This document shows, piece after piece, positions 290-7,378 of a stretch of DNA of 36,748 nt. The DNA is from Brachyspira murdochii. Its GTDB lineage: Bacteria > Spirochaetota > JAAYUW01. Numbering within the stretch: the first letter of the stretch is position 1; each line of letters opens with the position of its first letter. The stretch spans positions 17,394-54,141 of the forward strand of contig DYJT01000002.1 of the NCBI GenBank assembly GCA_020722965.1. Direction: 5' to 3'. Below the pieces are notes generated by a model. The model did not search any database and had not been told where the DNA came from. It saw only the letters and a list, made by a program, of their open reading frames with translations. The translations under genes were made by a program, and so were the position numbers.

Positions 290-372
290 ATAAGCAAAAA
301 ATTTTTATGAAATTTTTATAAAATAATAATTTAAAGTTGATATATAAAAATTATTTATTAAAGGAAATAAAT

Positions 373-1395
373 ATGAATTTTCCCAATATCGGATTAGTAT
401 CAACAGGGGTCTATATACCTAAAAATTTCATTACAGCCGCAGAAATTTCAAATCAAACTGGTATTGATGAGCAAGTTATCAAAGAAAAATTTGGTGTCAT
501 AAAGAAACCTATTGCAGATTCCGTTGAAACTACTTCTTATATGGGTTTAAAAGCGGCAGAAATTGCTTTAAAAAAGGCAGAAATTGATGCAAAAGATATC
601 GATTTGATAATCTGGTTTGGTGCACAGCATAAAGATTATCTTTGTTGGTTAGCAGGACTATATGTTGCAGATAATCTTGGTGCAAAAAATGCCTGGAGTT
701 TCGATATGGAAGGGATGTGTGGCTCTTTCATGATGGCTTTAAGCGTTGCAAAATCTATGATGATAACACAAGAAGATTTAAATACTGTTTTACTGGTATC
801 AGGTTATCGTAATAATGATTTGATTAGCTTAAAAGAACCCACAACTAAATTCATGCTTGACATTGGAAGTGGTGGATCGGCAGCTATTCTGAAAAAAAAC
901 CATAATAAAAATCTTGTTCTTGATTCTGCTTTTTTGGGAGATGGCTCCTTCAGCACAGATTGTGTATTCCCCGTATTTGGGTCAAAAAATTGGCCGGTAA
1001 AAGAAGAAGATTTAAAAAACGCACATTTTGTAGTTCAAGATGAAGAAGAATTTAAAAACAAACTTAATGAAAGAACTTTACCAAATTTTTACAAGGTAAT
1101 TGATAAAGCCTTAGAAAAATCAGGAAATTTAAAAAGAAAAGATATAGATTATCTTGCTATCTTACATTTCAAAAGATCAGCACATAATCTTATACTTCAA
1201 GAGCTAGGGTTAAAAGAAAATCAAACCACATATCTTGAAAATTATGGCCATATTGGTCAAAATGATCAGATCTTATCTATGGAACTAGGAATTGAACAAG
1301 GGAAAATAAAGGAAGGATCCAATATCATTTTGGTAGGAGCAGGCCTTGGATTTGTATGGGCAGCATCCGTTATTAGGTGGGGAAGCATTAAATAG
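373..1395 (+). CDS. 3-oxoacyl-ACP synthase III-like condensing enzyme (thiolase fold)
   Basis: This 340-residue protein has the length and fold signature of FabH/KAS III enzymes, which condense an acyl-CoA with a malonyl carrier. The nucleophilic cysteine is Cys116 in EGMCGSFM, with a glycine-rich GSGGSA loop near 165-170. A catalytic-type histidine is at 265 (AILHFKRSAH). Where FabH has its third catalytic residue (Asn in GNTSAAS), this protein reads NYGHIGQND, with His293 at or near the Asn position. The start at 373 is preferred over the in-frame ATG at 337 because AAGGA at 361-365 lies 7 bases ahead of it. It is the first gene of the transporter operon, so a housekeeping fatty-acid role is less likely than processing of an acyl compound linked to the transported substrate. 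The family call is secure; the substrate is unknown. Confidence 0.8.
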   Translation: MNFPNIGLVSTGVYIPKNFITAAEISNQTGIDEQVIKEKFGVIKKPIADSVETTSYMGLKAAEIALKKAEIDAKDIDLIIWFGAQHKDYLCWLAGLYVADNLGAKNAWSFDMEGMCGSFMMALSVAKSMMITQEDLNTVLLVSGYRNNDLISLKEPTTKFMLDIGSGGSAAILKKNHNKNLVLDSAFLGDGSFSTDCVFPVFGSKNWPVKEEDLKNAHFVVQDEEEFKNKLNERTLPNFYKVIDKALEKSGNLKRKDIDYLAILHFKRSAHNLILQELGLKENQTTYLENYGHIGQNDQILSMELGIEQGKIKEGSNIILVGAGLGFVWAASVIRWGSIK

Positions 1396-1528: not shown

Positions 1529-2719
1529 ATGAAAAAGATCTATCTTGCTCTTCTAATTCTGATTGCCGTATCAGTTGTTTTTGCAGTGGCAAATCCTGGT
1601 GATAAAAATGGAATCACCACAAATGAAATCAAGATTGGCTCATTTCAGGCACTTTCTGGACCAGTTGCAGCGATTGGCGTACCAGTTAAAAAAGGTTTGG
1701 ATGCTTATTTTAACTGGGTAAATAACAATGGTGGTATTTATGGAAGAAAAATAAACCTGATTGTTGCCGATGATGCTTTTAATCCTTCAAATACCGTTGT
1801 AGAAGTAAAAAGATTGGTAGAATCTGACAAGGTTTTTGCTCTTGTTTGTGGTCTTGGTGCACCAGGAAATCTTGCTGTCATGGATTATGTTGAAGCGCAA
1901 AAAGTACCATACATATACCAGGCTGCAGGAGCAGGTATTTTAACAATTCCACCAAAAAGATATATTTTTGGAGTACAACCCAATTATACAACAGAAGGCG
2001 CAATTGCCGCTAAATACCTTGTTGAACAAAAGAAAGCAAAAAGAATTGCCATAGTTTACAGAAATACAGATGACGGGAAAGAAGAATTAAATTCCTTTAA
2101 AAAGACTTTAAGTGCAAAAAATATAAACCTGGCAGCCGAAATTCCCATTGAACCAACAGCTACTGATTTTTCATCAAATATTGTAAAATTAACAGAAGCA
2201 AATGTCGATTCTATTTTGGTAATGCTGTTTGTTCCACAATCTTCAAATTTTGTGAAACAGGCAAAACAATTTGGCTTAACAAAACAAAATTATCTGCTTA
2301 CCTATTCAAATGCCGATCCTACATTTGCAGCAATAGCTGGTGCAGATATGGCTGTAGGTGTAGAAGCTCTTGCCTGGGTTAATGTTGACTTTACAGATCA
2401 AAACGCACATTTTTTGAAAGTTTATCAGGCAACATTCTCAGGTCAGATTCCAAACGCATATGCTGTCGCAGGCATGATTGCGGCTGAAGTTTTTACAGAA
2501 GGGGTCAAAAGAGCTGGAAAAAATCTAACAAGAGAAAAACTTATTAGTGCATTAGAGTCTATGAATAAATGGGTTGGTTTAATTAGCCCAATGATAAGCT
2601 ATGGACCTATCAACATCAAAAAAGATAAGGCAAGATTGGGTGTTCAGACGATGTATATACTTAAATTTAAGGAAGATGGAACTTTAGAGAAGGCTTTTGA
2701 CTGGATTACCATGGATTAA
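1529..2719 (+). CDS. livJ: ABC transporter substrate-binding protein, Liv/HAAT family
   Basis: This 396-residue protein begins with a signal peptide (KK, then a hydrophobic stretch to about residue 19 ending VFA). The mature part has the type I periplasmic-binding fold of LivJ-like proteins: GITTNEIKIGSFQALSGP near 28-45, GLDAYFNWVNNNGGIYGRKI, and a central segment AIAAKYLVEQKKAKRIAIVY. There is no lipobox cysteine, so it should be a soluble secreted protein. An excellent Shine-Dalgarno, AAGGAGG at 1518-1524, fixes the start. It captures the ligand for the permease pair downstream. The ligand need not be a branched-chain amino acid: this family also binds aromatic acids, amides and urea, and the condensing enzyme and hydrolase around it suggest an acyl or ester compound. 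Confidence 0.92.
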   Translation: MKKIYLALLILIAVSVVFAVANPGDKNGITTNEIKIGSFQALSGPVAAIGVPVKKGLDAYFNWVNNNGGIYGRKINLIVADDAFNPSNTVVEVKRLVESDKVFALVCGLGAPGNLAVMDYVEAQKVPYIYQAAGAGILTIPPKRYIFGVQPNYTTEGAIAAKYLVEQKKAKRIAIVYRNTDDGKEELNSFKKTLSAKNINLAAEIPIEPTATDFSSNIVKLTEANVDSILVMLFVPQSSNFVKQAKQFGLTKQNYLLTYSNADPTFAAIAGADMAVGVEALAWVNVDFTDQNAHFLKVYQATFSGQIPNAYAVAGMIAAEVFTEGVKRAGKNLTREKLISALESMNKWVGLISPMISYGPINIKKDKARLGVQTMYILKFKEDGTLEKAFDWITMD

Positions 2720-2728
2720 TAAAATTTT

Positions 2729-2777
2729 AAGCCACTGAAATAATAATCTAATTTTAAAATTTCAGTGGCTTTTTTTT
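2729..2777 (+). terminator. Intrinsic terminator inside the operon (attenuator)
   Basis: A perfect 13-bp inverted repeat, arms 2729-2741 and 2759-2771 (core GCCACTGAAAT / ATTTCAGTGGC), is followed by an uninterrupted T run to 2777. This is a strong rho-independent terminator placed between the binding-protein gene and the ATPase genes, with only 14 bases to the next ATG at 2792. Partial readthrough would keep the binding protein in excess over the membrane complex, as is common for ABC importers. Confidence 0.9.
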
Positions 2778-2791
2778 ACCAGGAGAAAATA

Positions 2792-3553
2792 ATGCTTAAA
2801 TGTAAAGAGATAACTGTTAGATTTGGCGGACTTGTCGCAGTTAACAAGATGAATTTGAATGTGGAAAAAGGTACCATTCATGCTTTAATAGGGCCAAATG
2901 GTGCAGGTAAAACCACTTTGTTCAATGCAATTTCTCGAATAGTTGAAGTAGAATCCGGTCAAATTCATTTTGAGAGTATGGATATTTTAAAAAAAGAACC
3001 TTATGAAATAATCAATTATGGGATTGTCAGAACATTTCAGAATTTAAAACTTTCACCATATCAGACTATTAAAGACAACATTGTAGCTGCTATTGTTCAT
3101 AATTATAAATCTAATTTATTTAATTCCACCTTTAAGTTATATTCAAAATTCTTAAAAAAAGCAGAGGAGATCGCATTTGAATCAGCGGCTATTTTTGGTA
3201 TTCAAAATAGAATGAATTCATTTACTGGTGCATTACCATATGGTATTTTAAAAAAAGTCGAGCTTGCAAGGGCTATTGCTTGTGAACCCAAAATCTTACT
3301 ACTTGATGAACCTGCTGCAGGATTAAATACAGATGAGAAGAATGAGCTTGATCAGATTCTTTTAAAACTAAAATCTATGGGTATAACTATATTACTTGTA
3401 GAACATGACATGAATCTGGTTATGCGAATCTCTGATGTTGTGACAGTTATGGATTTTGGAAAATTGATAGCTTCTGGTAATCCTAACGATATTTCAAAAA
3501 ATCCCGAAGTAATTAAAGTTTATTTAGGAAACTCTTATGATGTTAGAAATTAA
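2792..3553 (+). CDS. livG: Liv-type ABC transporter ATP-binding protein LivG
   Basis: This 253-residue ABC ATPase energises import from the cytoplasmic face. Walker A GPNGAGKTT is near 33-41, the Walker B segment is ILLLDEPAAGLN, and the H-loop is VEHDMNLV. The signature region reads LPYGILKKVELARA, where LivG proteins normally have LPYGQQR; the QQ is replaced by IL, an unusual but not obviously inactivating change. The start at ATG 2792 is chosen because AGGAG at 2781-2785 precedes it, and the upstream in-frame ATG at 2765 lies inside the terminator stem. The 3' end overlaps livF by 17 bases, implying translational coupling. Confidence 0.92.
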   Translation: MLKCKEITVRFGGLVAVNKMNLNVEKGTIHALIGPNGAGKTTLFNAISRIVEVESGQIHFESMDILKKEPYEIINYGIVRTFQNLKLSPYQTIKDNIVAAIVHNYKSNLFNSTFKLYSKFLKKAEEIAFESAAIFGIQNRMNSFTGALPYGILKKVELARAIACEPKILLLDEPAAGLNTDEKNELDQILLKLKSMGITILLVEHDMNLVMRISDVVTVMDFGKLIASGNPNDISKNPEVIKVYLGNSYDVRN

Positions 3554-4232
3554 TAAATTTTCAGTTTCTTATGGTAAGATTGATGCAGTTAAATCTGTCT
3601 CGCTTAGCTTAAAAGAGAAAGAAGTTGTTACAGTAATAGGTGTTAATGGAGCCGGGAAAAGTTCTCTTTTATACGGAATTTCAGGGATTGTTGAATCTAC
3701 TGGATCTATATTCTATAAAGATTTGGATATCTCCAGGTACACCTATGATAAAAGGGTTAAGCAGGGGATGATACTTTGCCCTGAGGGGAGGAGAATCTAC
3801 CCATCTTTAAGTGTAGAGGAGAATTTAAGACTTGGATCTTTTGCTGTTAAATTGGATAAAAGGCAATTACAAAAGGTTTATGACCTTTTCCCAAAACTTT
3901 ATGAGAGAAAAAAACAGATTGCCGGTTATCTTTCTGGCGGAGAACAGCAGATGCTGGCTTTAGGCAGGTCTTTAATGGCAAAACCACAACTTTTGATGCT
4001 TGATGAACCATCATTAGGTTTAGCGCCAATAGTAGTCGACCAGTTATATGATACTCTTAGTGCTCTTAAAGAAATAGGAATCTCAATTTTATTGATCGAA
4101 CAGAATGCATTTAAAGCTTTAGATTTTGCTGATAGAGCCTATATAATGGAAAATGGTAGAATCATTATAGAAGGAGAAGCAAAAAAGTTGCTCTATGAAG
4201 ATTCTGTTAGAAGATCTTATCTAGGTATATAG
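3537..4232 (+). CDS. livF: Liv-type ABC transporter ATP-binding protein LivF
   Basis: This 231-residue ATPase pairs with LivG. Motifs in order are Walker A GVNGAGKSS near 37-45, the LivF hallmark EGRRIYPSLSVEENL, the ABC signature LSGGEQQMLALGRSL, Walker B LLMLDEPSLGLAP and the H-loop region LLIEQN. Two adjacent in-frame ATGs (3537 and 3540) sit 7-10 bases after AGGA at 3526-3529, so the exact start is uncertain by one codon. It overlaps the end of livG and ends 9 bases before livH. Confidence 0.92.
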   Translation: MMLEINKFSVSYGKIDAVKSVSLSLKEKEVVTVIGVNGAGKSSLLYGISGIVESTGSIFYKDLDISRYTYDKRVKQGMILCPEGRRIYPSLSVEENLRLGSFAVKLDKRQLQKVYDLFPKLYERKKQIAGYLSGGEQQMLALGRSLMAKPQLLMLDEPSLGLAPIVVDQLYDTLSALKEIGISILLIEQNAFKALDFADRAYIMENGRIIIEGEAKKLLYEDSVRRSYLGI

Positions 4233-4241
4233 GAGATCAAA

Positions 4242-5186
4242 ATGTTTGTTAGAATTATGCAATCTGTGATTTTTGGTCTTTTCTCTGGTTGTATGTATGG
4301 GATTGTTGGATTAGGTCTGGCAATGATATATAGAACGACTGGAGTAATGAATTTCGCCCATGGAAACTCGGGTATGATAGGTGTATTTGTCGGTTGGACA
4401 GTTCTGGTATTAACACAAAATATATTTCTTGCTATTTTTATTGGTGTTCTTTTCGGCGCATTTCTTGGAATATTCATGGATAAAGTTTTGATGAAAAAGG
4501 TTAAGGGACTATCGCATAGTTCAATGTTAATTATAACACTTGGTGTTCTTTTGATATTCGATGGTATTGCCTTAATAATATGGGGAACACAACCATTACT
4601 ATTTAAAGATATATTTTCAATTCCACCGAAATTAATTTATCTTCCAGCTAGTATAAACCCAAATAATTTTCCATTGATAATCCCTGGAAATGATCTCGCA
4701 AACTTTATAACTATTAGTTTACTGGCGGTAGTTATTATATTATTTTCTAAATTTACAAAACCCGGACTCGCACTTATAGCAAGGGCAGAAGATGAACTTG
4801 GGGCAAAGGTTGTTGGAATTAATGTTAATTTTACCGATAGTCTTGCCTGGGCTTTGGGGATTGCAACAGTTGTTTTTGCGGGTTTTATAAATGCACCGAA
4901 AACCACGGTAAATCCTGGTATGCTTGTTAATCTTCAACTATATGGATTTACAGCCGCTGTTTTTGGAGGTTTTTCAAGTTTCATAGGTTCATTTTTTGGT
5001 GGTCTTATTCTTGGTGTTTTAGAGAAATTAATAATTCTGGGACTAGATGGATTGTTTACTAAATTTGGAATATCTACGGTAAATCCAGTAGATTTACAAC
5101 TTTCTATCATTCTTGTTGTAATTATAATAACCTTAATGATTAAACCAACAGGTTTGTTTGCTTCAAAATTCAAAGGAAAGGTCTAA
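4242..5186 (+). CDS. livH: Liv-type ABC transporter permease LivH
   Basis: This 314-residue inner-membrane permease has about eight hydrophobic segments and the LivH signature MNFAHGNSGMIG near 38-49. The cytoplasmic coupling loop is ARAEDELGAKVVGIN, which contacts the ATPases. A Shine-Dalgarno GGAG lies about 8 bases before the ATG. The stop codon is separated from the next ATG by one base, so it is translationally coupled to the LivM-hydrolase fusion. Confidence 0.92.
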   Translation: MFVRIMQSVIFGLFSGCMYGIVGLGLAMIYRTTGVMNFAHGNSGMIGVFVGWTVLVLTQNIFLAIFIGVLFGAFLGIFMDKVLMKKVKGLSHSSMLIITLGVLLIFDGIALIIWGTQPLLFKDIFSIPPKLIYLPASINPNNFPLIIPGNDLANFITISLLAVVIILFSKFTKPGLALIARAEDELGAKVVGINVNFTDSLAWALGIATVVFAGFINAPKTTVNPGMLVNLQLYGFTAAVFGGFSSFIGSFFGGLILGVLEKLIILGLDGLFTKFGISTVNPVDLQLSIILVVIIITLMIKPTGLFASKFKGKV

Positions 5187-5187
5187 T

Positions 5188-6921
5188 ATGTCAGTATTAA
5201 AAAATAGCTTAATTTATTTAATAGTTGGTATTCTGCTAGGTCTTCTTTTTATCAATCAGGGTTTTGTCCTTGTTATTCTTTCTCAGATAGTAATATTTGC
5301 AATCGCGGCATTAGGGTTAAACATTTTGACCGGTTTTGCGGGGCAGGTATCAATAGGTAATGCCGCTTTTATGTCTATTGGAGCATATACCAGTGCGGTT
5401 CTTTCTATGAAATTTGGTTTGCCAATATCTGTTACAGTTATAATAGCCGGTATATTAGCCTCGATTTTTGGTATTATAATTGGCTTCCCTGCTTTGAGGA
5501 TGAAAGGCTTTTATCTTGCAATAGCAACTATGGCATTCGGCGTCGTGATTGAGCAGATAATATCTGTTGTACCATATTTAGGTGCACATGATGGGATAAG
5601 AAGTATTCCGAAATTGTCTCAAAGCGAATTTTCTTCATTTTTAATAGTTCTTGTCGTTTTTTCCATTGTATTAATTATTATTAAGAATATCGTAGAAGGT
5701 CCAATGGGAATAAAATGGAAAATGATAAGAGATGAGGAGATAATTGCTATTTCATTTGGAACTAATACCTCGAGTTCAAAATTATCTGCATTTATGATAA
5801 GTGCATTTTTTTGCGGAATATCGGGTGCATTATATGCCCATATAGTTGGTTATATTAGAGCCGCAGATTTTGGTTTATCCCGATCACTTGATCTACTTGC
5901 AATGATCATGATTGGCGGTCTTGCTACATTAAATGGGAATATAATAGGGTCAATTATCATTATAGGTTTAAGGTTCTTCTTTAGTAGAGGATTTGGCCCA
6001 TGGCTTTCGGTAATTATTGGATTTCTTTTAATAACTTTTGTATTGTTTTTTCCACGAGGAATTGCATGGGGAATTAGTTTGTGGTATCACAAATATTTTC
6101 AGATACCATTTATTGAGATTAAAAAATTTATAGCCAGGAGAAGAACAATGGATGGTAAATTTATAAAAATAGATAACATAGATATATTTTACATTGAAAA
6201 AGGAGAAGGACAACCAATAATCTATGTACATGGTAATACAGGTTCATCGAGATGGTGGAAAAAAGTCATGGAGATTGATGATTATAAAACTATTGCATTA
6301 GATCTACCTAATTTTGGAAGATCTTCCCATATTGATAAGGCAGAGATAGATATCTATGCCCAATATCTTAAGAAATTTATCGATAAATTATCATTAAATT
6401 CTCCTGTAATTGTTGGTCATAGCCTGGGTGGAGCAGTTGTAATTTCATTTATCAGTAATTATCCAAATATACCAAAGGGGGTTGTACTTGTAGATAGTTC
6501 ATCTGTTACAGGTTTGGTTACCCCACAAGAACATTATCCCGTAATTGAGATGTATAAAACAAGCAGGGATTTAATGTATAAGGCTTTGTCTGCTATTGCG
6601 CCAGAACTTAAAGATAATTCATTTTTGAATGAGCTAACAGATGATGCTATGCTTATGGCACCATTTGCTTATACCGGGCATCCAAAATCTTTAGAAAGAT
6701 TTAATTATAAAGGTAAATTATCCTCTTTCAATAAACCTGTATTAATAATGTGGGGTAAAAAAGATATAATCATAACAAAGGCAATGGTTGAAGAGACAAA
6801 AAAAGAGTTAAATGACAGTACGGTCATTGAATTTGAAAATATTGGACATTCACCAATGGTTGAAAATCCAGAAGTTTTTAAAAATACTCTTTTAAACTTT
6901 TTAAAGTCTAAGAATCTTTAA
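5188..6921 (+). CDS. livM: LivM permease fused in frame to an alpha/beta hydrolase
   Basis: The 577-residue product has two parts. Residues 1 to about 315 form a LivM permease: roughly eight to ten hydrophobic segments, GFAGQVSIGNAAFMSIGAY near 51-69, and the coupling loop MIRDEEIIAISFGTN. Residues 321-577 form a complete alpha/beta hydrolase with oxyanion segment VHGNTGSS, nucleophile elbow GHSLGG (Ser412), acid Asp526 in MWGKKD and His554 in IGHSPMVENP. The basic linker KKFIARRR before residue 321 suggests a cytoplasmic hydrolase by the positive-inside rule. LivM alone is usually about 300-350 residues, so both halves are full length. ATG 5188 is chosen because an SD-like AAAGGAAAGG lies just ahead and livH stops at 5186. 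A second start at 6148 may give free hydrolase. The substrate is unknown. Confidence 0.9.
   Translation: MSVLKNSLIYLIVGILLGLLFINQGFVLVILSQIVIFAIAALGLNILTGFAGQVSIGNAAFMSIGAYTSAVLSMKFGLPISVTVIIAGILASIFGIIIGFPALRMKGFYLAIATMAFGVVIEQIISVVPYLGAHDGIRSIPKLSQSEFSSFLIVLVVFSIVLIIIKNIVEGPMGIKWKMIRDEEIIAISFGTNTSSSKLSAFMISAFFCGISGALYAHIVGYIRAADFGLSRSLDLLAMIMIGGLATLNGNIIGSIIIIGLRFFFSRGFGPWLSVIIGFLLITFVLFFPRGIAWGISLWYHKYFQIPFIEIKKFIARRRTMDGKFIKIDNIDIFYIEKGEGQPIIYVHGNTGSSRWWKKVMEIDDYKTIALDLPNFGRSSHIDKAEIDIYAQYLKKFIDKLSLNSPVIVGHSLGGAVVISFISNYPNIPKGVVLVDSSSVTGLVTPQEHYPVIEMYKTSRDLMYKALSAIAPELKDNSFLNELTDDAMLMAPFAYTGHPKSLERFNYKGKLSSFNKPVLIMWGKKDIIITKAMVEETKKELNDSTVIEFENIGHSPMVENPEVFKNTLLNFLKSKNL
6136..6150 (+). 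promoter_or_regulatory. Internal Shine-Dalgarno and ATG at the LivM-hydrolase junction
   Basis: AGGAG at 6136-6140 lies 7 bases before an in-frame ATG at 6148-6150, the first codon of the hydrolase domain (MDGKFIKI). The spacing is ideal and matches other starts in this operon. It could make a separate 257-residue hydrolase in addition to the fusion. It may also mark where two genes were separate before a stop codon was lost. Confidence 0.6.
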
Positions 6922-7051: not shown

Positions 7052-7378
7052 ATGTATCTTCTAATCACTTTTATTCCAGAATCAGAGAGTGAAAAGGTGA
7101 TAGATGCAATCTTTAGTTCTGGAGCAGGTAAATTCTCAAAATATGATAGGGCCGGCTTTACTTGTAAGGGAGTGGGAAGATTTCGTCCAAATGAAAATGC
7201 AAATCCATATATTGGCGAAATAGGTAAGGATGAATTTGTAGATGAAATAAGATTTGAAACAATAGTCAAAGATCAAGATATCGATAATGTTTTAAGATCT
7301 CTTAAAAAAGCCCATCCTTATGAACAACCAGCTGTCTATGTGATAAAAATGGATGATAAATCATTTATAATAGATTGA
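7052..7378 (+). CDS. YqfO/NIF3-type PII-like domain protein (COG3323 type)
   Basis: This 108-residue single-domain protein resembles the PII/CutA-like insert of YqfO and NIF3 proteins. Visible family features are LLITFIPESESEKVIDAIFSSGAGK at the start, the glycine-rich CKGVGRFRPNENANPYIG near 35-52, and a C-terminal KKAHPYEQPAVYVI. Family members form compact trimers; their function is poorly defined. The start is ATG 7052, because GGAGG at 7040-7044 precedes it; an in-frame ATG at 6992 has no such site. The gene stands alone, with gaps of about 100 bases on both sides. Confidence 0.8.
   Translation: MYLLITFIPESESEKVIDAIFSSGAGKFSKYDRAGFTCKGVGRFRPNENANPYIGEIGKDEFVDEIRFETIVKDQDIDNVLRSLKKAHPYEQPAVYVIKMDDKSFIID

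Follow-up and report, generated by a model that had tools for sequence, protein, structure and literature searches.

The fused gene and its surroundings

The window, that is, the whole stretch of 36,748 nucleotides that was analysed, belonged to a Spirochaetota MAG whose nearest relatives in the public records were Exilispira sp. and Spirochaetales bacterium AS27. It contained an operon in the order KAS III-like gene, binding protein, LivG, LivF, LivH, and LivM::hydrolase, the last gene being the fusion (Table 1). An open reading frame check of the window showed that the fusion gene was a single frame of 577 amino acids plus a stop codon, with no internal stop. As both Pfam domains were complete in this frame, the description in an earlier note on this DNA of a full LivM and a full hydrolase in one uninterrupted frame was correct. 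The product of the first operon gene was a member of the PRK06840 KAS III-like family by its score against NF005308. Judged by eye from motifs, the Asn of FabH was apparently replaced by His (YGH) in this protein, and both the His and the Asn were apparently replaced in another KAS III-like protein (L099:15003-16007). Upstream of the window and divergent from the operon were a tandem-TetR regulator, a second KAS III-like gene, a CoA-transferase, and an SCP-x-like thiolase, giving the cluster layout thiolase, CoA-transferase, KAS III-like, tandem TetR, and then KAS3-SBP-LivG-LivF-LivH-LivM::hydrolase. The upstream regulator (L099:16004-17182) had 392 amino acids with two tandem TetR_N domains, and a similar regulator lay beside the cluster elsewhere. 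Downstream of the fusion, positions 7052-7378 encoded a small protein, conserved in the same-genus genome G001, whose P-II-like match was weak (22.4 bits, below the cut-off of 25).

Table 1. Features of the fusion gene and its operon (positions in the window)
Feature	Position	Strand	Basis
livM::abh fusion gene	5188..6921	+	Open frame, two Pfam domains above cut-off, conserved elsewhere
LivM permease domain, ~10 membrane helices	5188..6060	+	PF02653 at residues 28-284; AlphaFold helices 2-287
Basic helical linker, residues 292-320, predicted cytoplasmic	6061..6147	+	Predicted helix 292-318; five Lys/Arg within the ten residues 311-320
AGGAG, Shine-Dalgarno-like (SD), intragenic	6136..6140	+	AGGAG/GGAGG at the same place in G001, G002, and G168
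ATG, Met321, candidate internal start	6148..6150	+	Aligns with start Met of standalone hydrolases
Alpha/beta hydrolase domain, 257 aa	6148..6921	+	Triad Ser412, Asp526, His554; pLDDT 97.2; Foldseek
LivH permease, operon of the fusion gene	4242..5186	+	PF02653
LivF ATPase	3537..4232	+	PF00005
LivG ATPase, start codon uncertain	2765..3553	+	PF00005 and PF12399
LIV-type substrate-binding protein	1529..2719	+	PF13458, 244.7 bits
KAS III-like protein, PRK06840 family, operon gene 1, start uncertain	337..1395	+	NF005308, 447.8 bits against a cut-off of 315

The N-terminal part of the fused protein matched BPD_transp_2 (PF02653) with 107.9 bits against a cut-off of 26.8, covering positions 3-267 of the 269 in the profile. 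This near-full-length match, together with an operon encoding LivH, two ATPases (LivG and LivF), and a periplasmic binding protein of the Peripla_BP_6 type, identified a LivM-type permease like those of LIV/HAAT systems. It differed from these by the C-terminal hydrolase and by scores below the curated cut-offs of LivM models (PRK11301, 139.8 bits against 366); because these scores were far under the cut-offs, no substrate was assigned to the importer. No solved structure matching the LivM part was found by sequence search. AlphaFold prediction of the full fusion gave a mean pLDDT of 92.9 and a pTM of 0.67, with both domains intact in the order of about 10 membrane helices, the helix of residues 292-318, and the complete hydrolase. 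The linker was the least confident region (pLDDT about 69-80), and at a pTM of 0.67 the domain arrangement was not fixed by the model.

In the C-terminal part, complete Abhydrolase_1 and Abhydrolase_6 matches extended across residues 343-564 with 83.6 and 64.1 bits, respectively, against cut-offs of about 26. The earlier note had rightly named the catalytic residues: the nucleophile Ser412 (codon 6421-6423, in GHSLGG), Asp526 (6763-6765), and His554 (6847-6849) were invariant, together with an HGN motif, in an alignment of 27 fused and unfused homologues. When the hydrolase was modeled alone, the serine lay between strand 87-91 and helix 93-104. The best Foldseek matches in the PDB were PhaZ of B. 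thuringiensis, aryl esterases, a feruloyl esterase, and C-C hydrolases, with E values of 1e-18 to 1e-22 and identities of about 19-25%. The fold, nucleophile elbow, Ser-Asp-His triad, and PDB matches placed the domain in the serine-type alpha/beta hydrolase superfamily. It shared fold, elbow, and triad with PhaZ, aryl esterases, meta-cleavage C-C hydrolases, and PcaD, but showed only about 20-25% identity with them, was joined to a permease, and was about 40 residues shorter than PhaZ. The hydrolase part reached none of the NCBIfam cut-offs; it scored 128.1 bits with the intracellular PHA depolymerase model NF050089 (equivalog cut-off 300) and 60 bits with the 3-oxoadipate enol-lactonase PcaD model TIGR02427 (cut-off 255.85). 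This part is thus a serine hydrolase with no specificity assigned, and the neighbouring genes suggest that its substrate is most likely an ester or a lactone.

The linker contained a motif, W-H-K/R-x-LQ-x-P-Y/F, that also occurred in distant fusions. According to the positive-inside rule, such a basic linker would be predicted on the cytoplasmic side. In the same phylum, three loci (L124, L125, and L126) had the LivG ATPase fused after LivM. Since this ATPase is necessarily cytoplasmic, the C-terminus of LivM must be cytoplasmic too. From these LivM-LivG fusions and the basic linker, we infer that the hydrolase of the fusion faces the cytoplasm. Both kinds of fusion would thus carry a cytoplasmic partner on the LivM C-terminus, although that partner is a transporter ATPase in LivM-LivG and a catabolic enzyme in the window. 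A further candidate for a LivM-LivG fusion, G008, was rejected, since its 664-aa frame was merely a stop-free stretch upstream of LivM.

Distribution and history of the fusion

A search for the same architecture in other genomes found the livM::hydrolase fusion in seven other Spirochaetota genomes from four families, with 36-76% identity, and an eighth copy that was truncated where its contig ended. Two of these genomes were of the same genus (G001, 76%; G002, 67%), and a search of 393 Spirochaetota genomes added G168 (58%), G332 (52%, a contig of GWB1_60_80), and G334 (40%), as well as the partial copy in G344, whose contig ended inside LivM. A search of one order added G425 (37%) and G420 (36%). 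Both Pfam domains were detected in the other fused proteins tested. The earlier note had offered a recent loss of the livM stop codon as an alternative, and had named a stop before 6148 in all close relatives as a sign of a local mutation or error. As both same-genus genomes were fused, the fusion was not a local mutation or error, and the occurrence in four families at 36-76% identity refuted a recent loss. That a recent local stop loss or an assembly error made the fusion is almost certainly wrong: independent assemblies of several species bear it, and no point in favour of such an origin was found. Among the three closest species, dS ranged from about 1.3 to saturated, and dN/dS was 0.07-0.19 in both domains wherever dS was finite. 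The presence of the fusion in distant genomes and dN/dS values far below 1 indicated that the fusion is old and under purifying selection. The sequence comparison thus confirmed a stable, selected, and conserved importer-hydrolase fusion with an intact catalytic triad. Outside Spirochaetota, one pattern-seeded scan, a weak search, found no fusion, and none of the 1764 records of a plasmid collection that matched the query covered 80% of it.

In phylogenetic analysis, the fused LivM domains formed one clade (support 96/96) in which no unfused member was found. The fused hydrolases, on the other hand, did not form one clade (3 changes): the near fusions nested among unfused relatives, and those of G334, G425, and G420 grouped apart. 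In constraint tests on the hydrolase tree, a clade of all fused forms was mildly rejected (p-AU 0.035), and a clade of the near fusions alone gave a p-AU of 0.125. Both fused groups shared the linker motif, and G334 and G420 each had a second, unfused hydrolase that was nearer to that of the window than their fused one. The hydrolase tree favoured more than one event, and the two trees together suggest either a single fusion in which the hydrolase was later replaced or two separate fusions to one lineage of LivM.

Genes of this set also flanked the hydrolase, fused or unfused, in many other genomes, and in relatives an acetoacetyl-CoA-reductase-like SDR was among the neighbours. A PRK06840 KAS III accompanied the hydrolase orthologue in 17 of the 19 hydrolase genomes, compared with 22 of 393 overall (hypergeometric p 2e-23, kinship ignored). 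Many other lineages had conserved pathway genes but paired them with another LIV importer, ordered LivH-LivM-LivG-LivF, with one or two separate hydrolase genes at the end of the operon (L040, L042, and L049). The binding protein and permeases of this alternative importer were only about 20-31% like those of the window. Because the pathway genes were constant and the importers dissimilar, the hydrolase appears to travel with the pathway and the importer to be exchanged, the hydrolase ending either operon. Side by side, these three loci and positions 1529-6921 of the window present two dissimilar LIV importers, with different gene orders, on one pathway gene set.

Ten unfused orthologues (L029, L047, L048, and L084-L090) had an in-frame lipoprotein-like signal ahead of the hydrolase. 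This signal, encoded in the interval of 88-163 bases that separates the hydrolase start from the gene before it, was hydrophobic, ended in Gly/Ala/Ser-Cys, and had a shuffle p of at most 0.001 in each case; several of its candidate starts overlapped the previous stop codon, often that of a preceding hydrolase gene. By a strict rule, 8 of the 10 had an SD-preceded start at the hydrolase proper. For most of them, the peptide alone gives an SD with a probability of about 0.6-0.7, so the SD itself is not evidence there. A candidate for a further fusion, G322, was discarded, as its 563-aa frame had no LivM and encoded an unfused hydrolase that carried a lipoprotein-like signal.

A candidate internal start at the junction

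The earlier note had correctly placed AGGAG 7 bases ahead of the in-frame ATG of Met321. This residue aligned with the start Met of the unfused orthologues and therefore marks the ancestral hydrolase start. AGGAG or GGAGG was found 6-7 bases before this Met in the four closest fusions (G000, G001, G002, and G168), and a convincing start was absent from the junction in G332, G334, G425, and G420, so that the site and start were conserved in four of eight fusions. Base rates for the genome of the window were taken from 180 kb, in which 3 of 789 internal ATGs had such an SD site, the one at 6148 included. Of the internal ATGs in G000, G001, G002, and G168, 1.3, 0, 0.6, and 2.1%, respectively, equalled this site in anti-SD pairing, which was stronger here than at the median first ATG. 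With the linker protein held fixed, codon usage gave SD probabilities of 0.16, 0.14, 0.17, and 0.09, the product of which is about 3e-4 if they are independent; this product ignores ancestry, is inflated by shared descent, and comes from only four genomes.

In the window, AGGAG coincided with two Arg codons (AGG AGA) in the basic linker, and with a probability of 0.16 it is weak evidence in one genome alone. It may even be, although we consider this somewhat doubtful, that AGGAG-ATG is a by-product of these Arg codons and the ancestral start Met, and that free hydrolase is not made. Such an origin would agree with the site probabilities given the protein, 0.09-0.17 per genome, and with the lack of the site in half of the fusions, but it would not readily explain the presence of the site in all four near-group genomes tested with the Met despite saturated synonymous sites, or the case of GC-rich G168, in which the linker codons CGG AGG form a perfect GGAGG where AGG is little used for Arg (325 occurrences, compared with 1069 of CGC). 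From the sequences, dual products, a tethered and a free enzyme, are likely in the near group, where 6148 would serve as a start, and absent elsewhere; the internal start may also be a relic of the unfused gene. The proposal of the earlier note that one gene may give both forms is hence plausible for the four closest fusions, which kept the site, and not for the four distant ones. As these have no internal start, the fused form alone suffices there.

Proposed role of the fusion

The sequences establish the fusion, its conservation, its intact catalytic residues, and its conserved catabolic neighbourhood. We consider it probable that this selected fusion holds a serine hydrolase at the C-terminal, cytoplasmic end of LivM for import and cutting of a cargo, with free enzyme in addition in some genomes. 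The LIV importer would bring in a short acyl ester, a lactone, or a hydroxyacid oligomer, which the tethered hydrolase would cut where it leaves the channel on the inner side; the uncut molecule could leak back out, but its acid product would be trapped. Degradation of the acid would follow by CoA transfer and thiolysis, carried out by the CoA-transferase, KAS III-like protein, and thiolase of the cluster. For Exilispira-type genomes and for G168, the second ribosome site and start would probably yield a free enzyme of 257 amino acids in excess of one copy per transporter; G332 and the G334/G425/G420 clade, in which the second start is absent, would make the tethered form only.

A genuine and conserved fusion could instead have no functional effect: the livM stop would have been lost long ago between two genes that were already co-expressed in one operon, and the enzyme would act on a pathway intermediate, with nothing gained at the membrane. 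The hydrolase does end unfused LIV operons in the phylum as well, and the fused hydrolases, not being one clade, may have been joined or parted more than once. We nevertheless regard neutrality as unlikely, since the fused LivM domains are one old clade without a known unfused member, the linker motif is conserved, and four fusions without a separate start have retained the joined form over long times. A more specific proposal, that the hydrolase acts on oligo-3-hydroxybutyrate and the transporter imports 3-hydroxybutyrate oligomers, seems quite improbable. The top fold match was PhaZ of B. thuringiensis (TM 0.86-0.88 on the query), the depolymerase model gave its 128 bits, and the CoA-transferase, the thiolase, and the SDR of the relatives would fit; however, that score is far below 300, the identity is 22-23%, and many other esterases and C-C hydrolases matched almost equally well.

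Compared with its unfused relatives, the hydrolase may be membrane-bound on the inside in the fusions and on the outside in the ten lipoprotein-type orthologues, with a free form in both. A tentative extension of the import-and-cut reading, for which we would claim a little less than an even chance, is that one gene gives membrane-bound and free hydrolase, that tethering arose by two unrelated means, LivM fusion inside and a lipoprotein signal outside, and that importer and enzyme form an uptake-and-cut unit. The pathway does not require a LivM-tethered hydrolase, since that of some relatives is free or apparently exported.

Both parts of the protein belong to known families, and, as far as word searches show, the joining of a LIV permease to a catabolic hydrolase is apparently undescribed; such searches of the literature found no LivM-hydrolase fusion, and to our knowledge ABC importers with joined enzymes have seldom been described. 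ABC exporters of the PCAT family, with their fused peptidase, likewise combine a transporter and a cargo-acting enzyme in one chain, but they are exporters with an N-terminal C39 peptidase and folds unrelated to those of the fusion. A related alpha/beta hydrolase is attached to another unrelated metabolic protein in the acetoin dehydrogenase E2 with a C-terminal hydrolase (PRK14875; 89 bits, cut-off 307), although the partner there is a soluble acyltransferase and not a permease. The fusion offers a direct test of coupling between ABC import and cargo hydrolysis and a lead to the substrate of the uncharacterised KAS III/thiolase/CoA-transferase cluster, and it provides a natural case for studying how internal starts could control the proportions of tethered and free enzyme.
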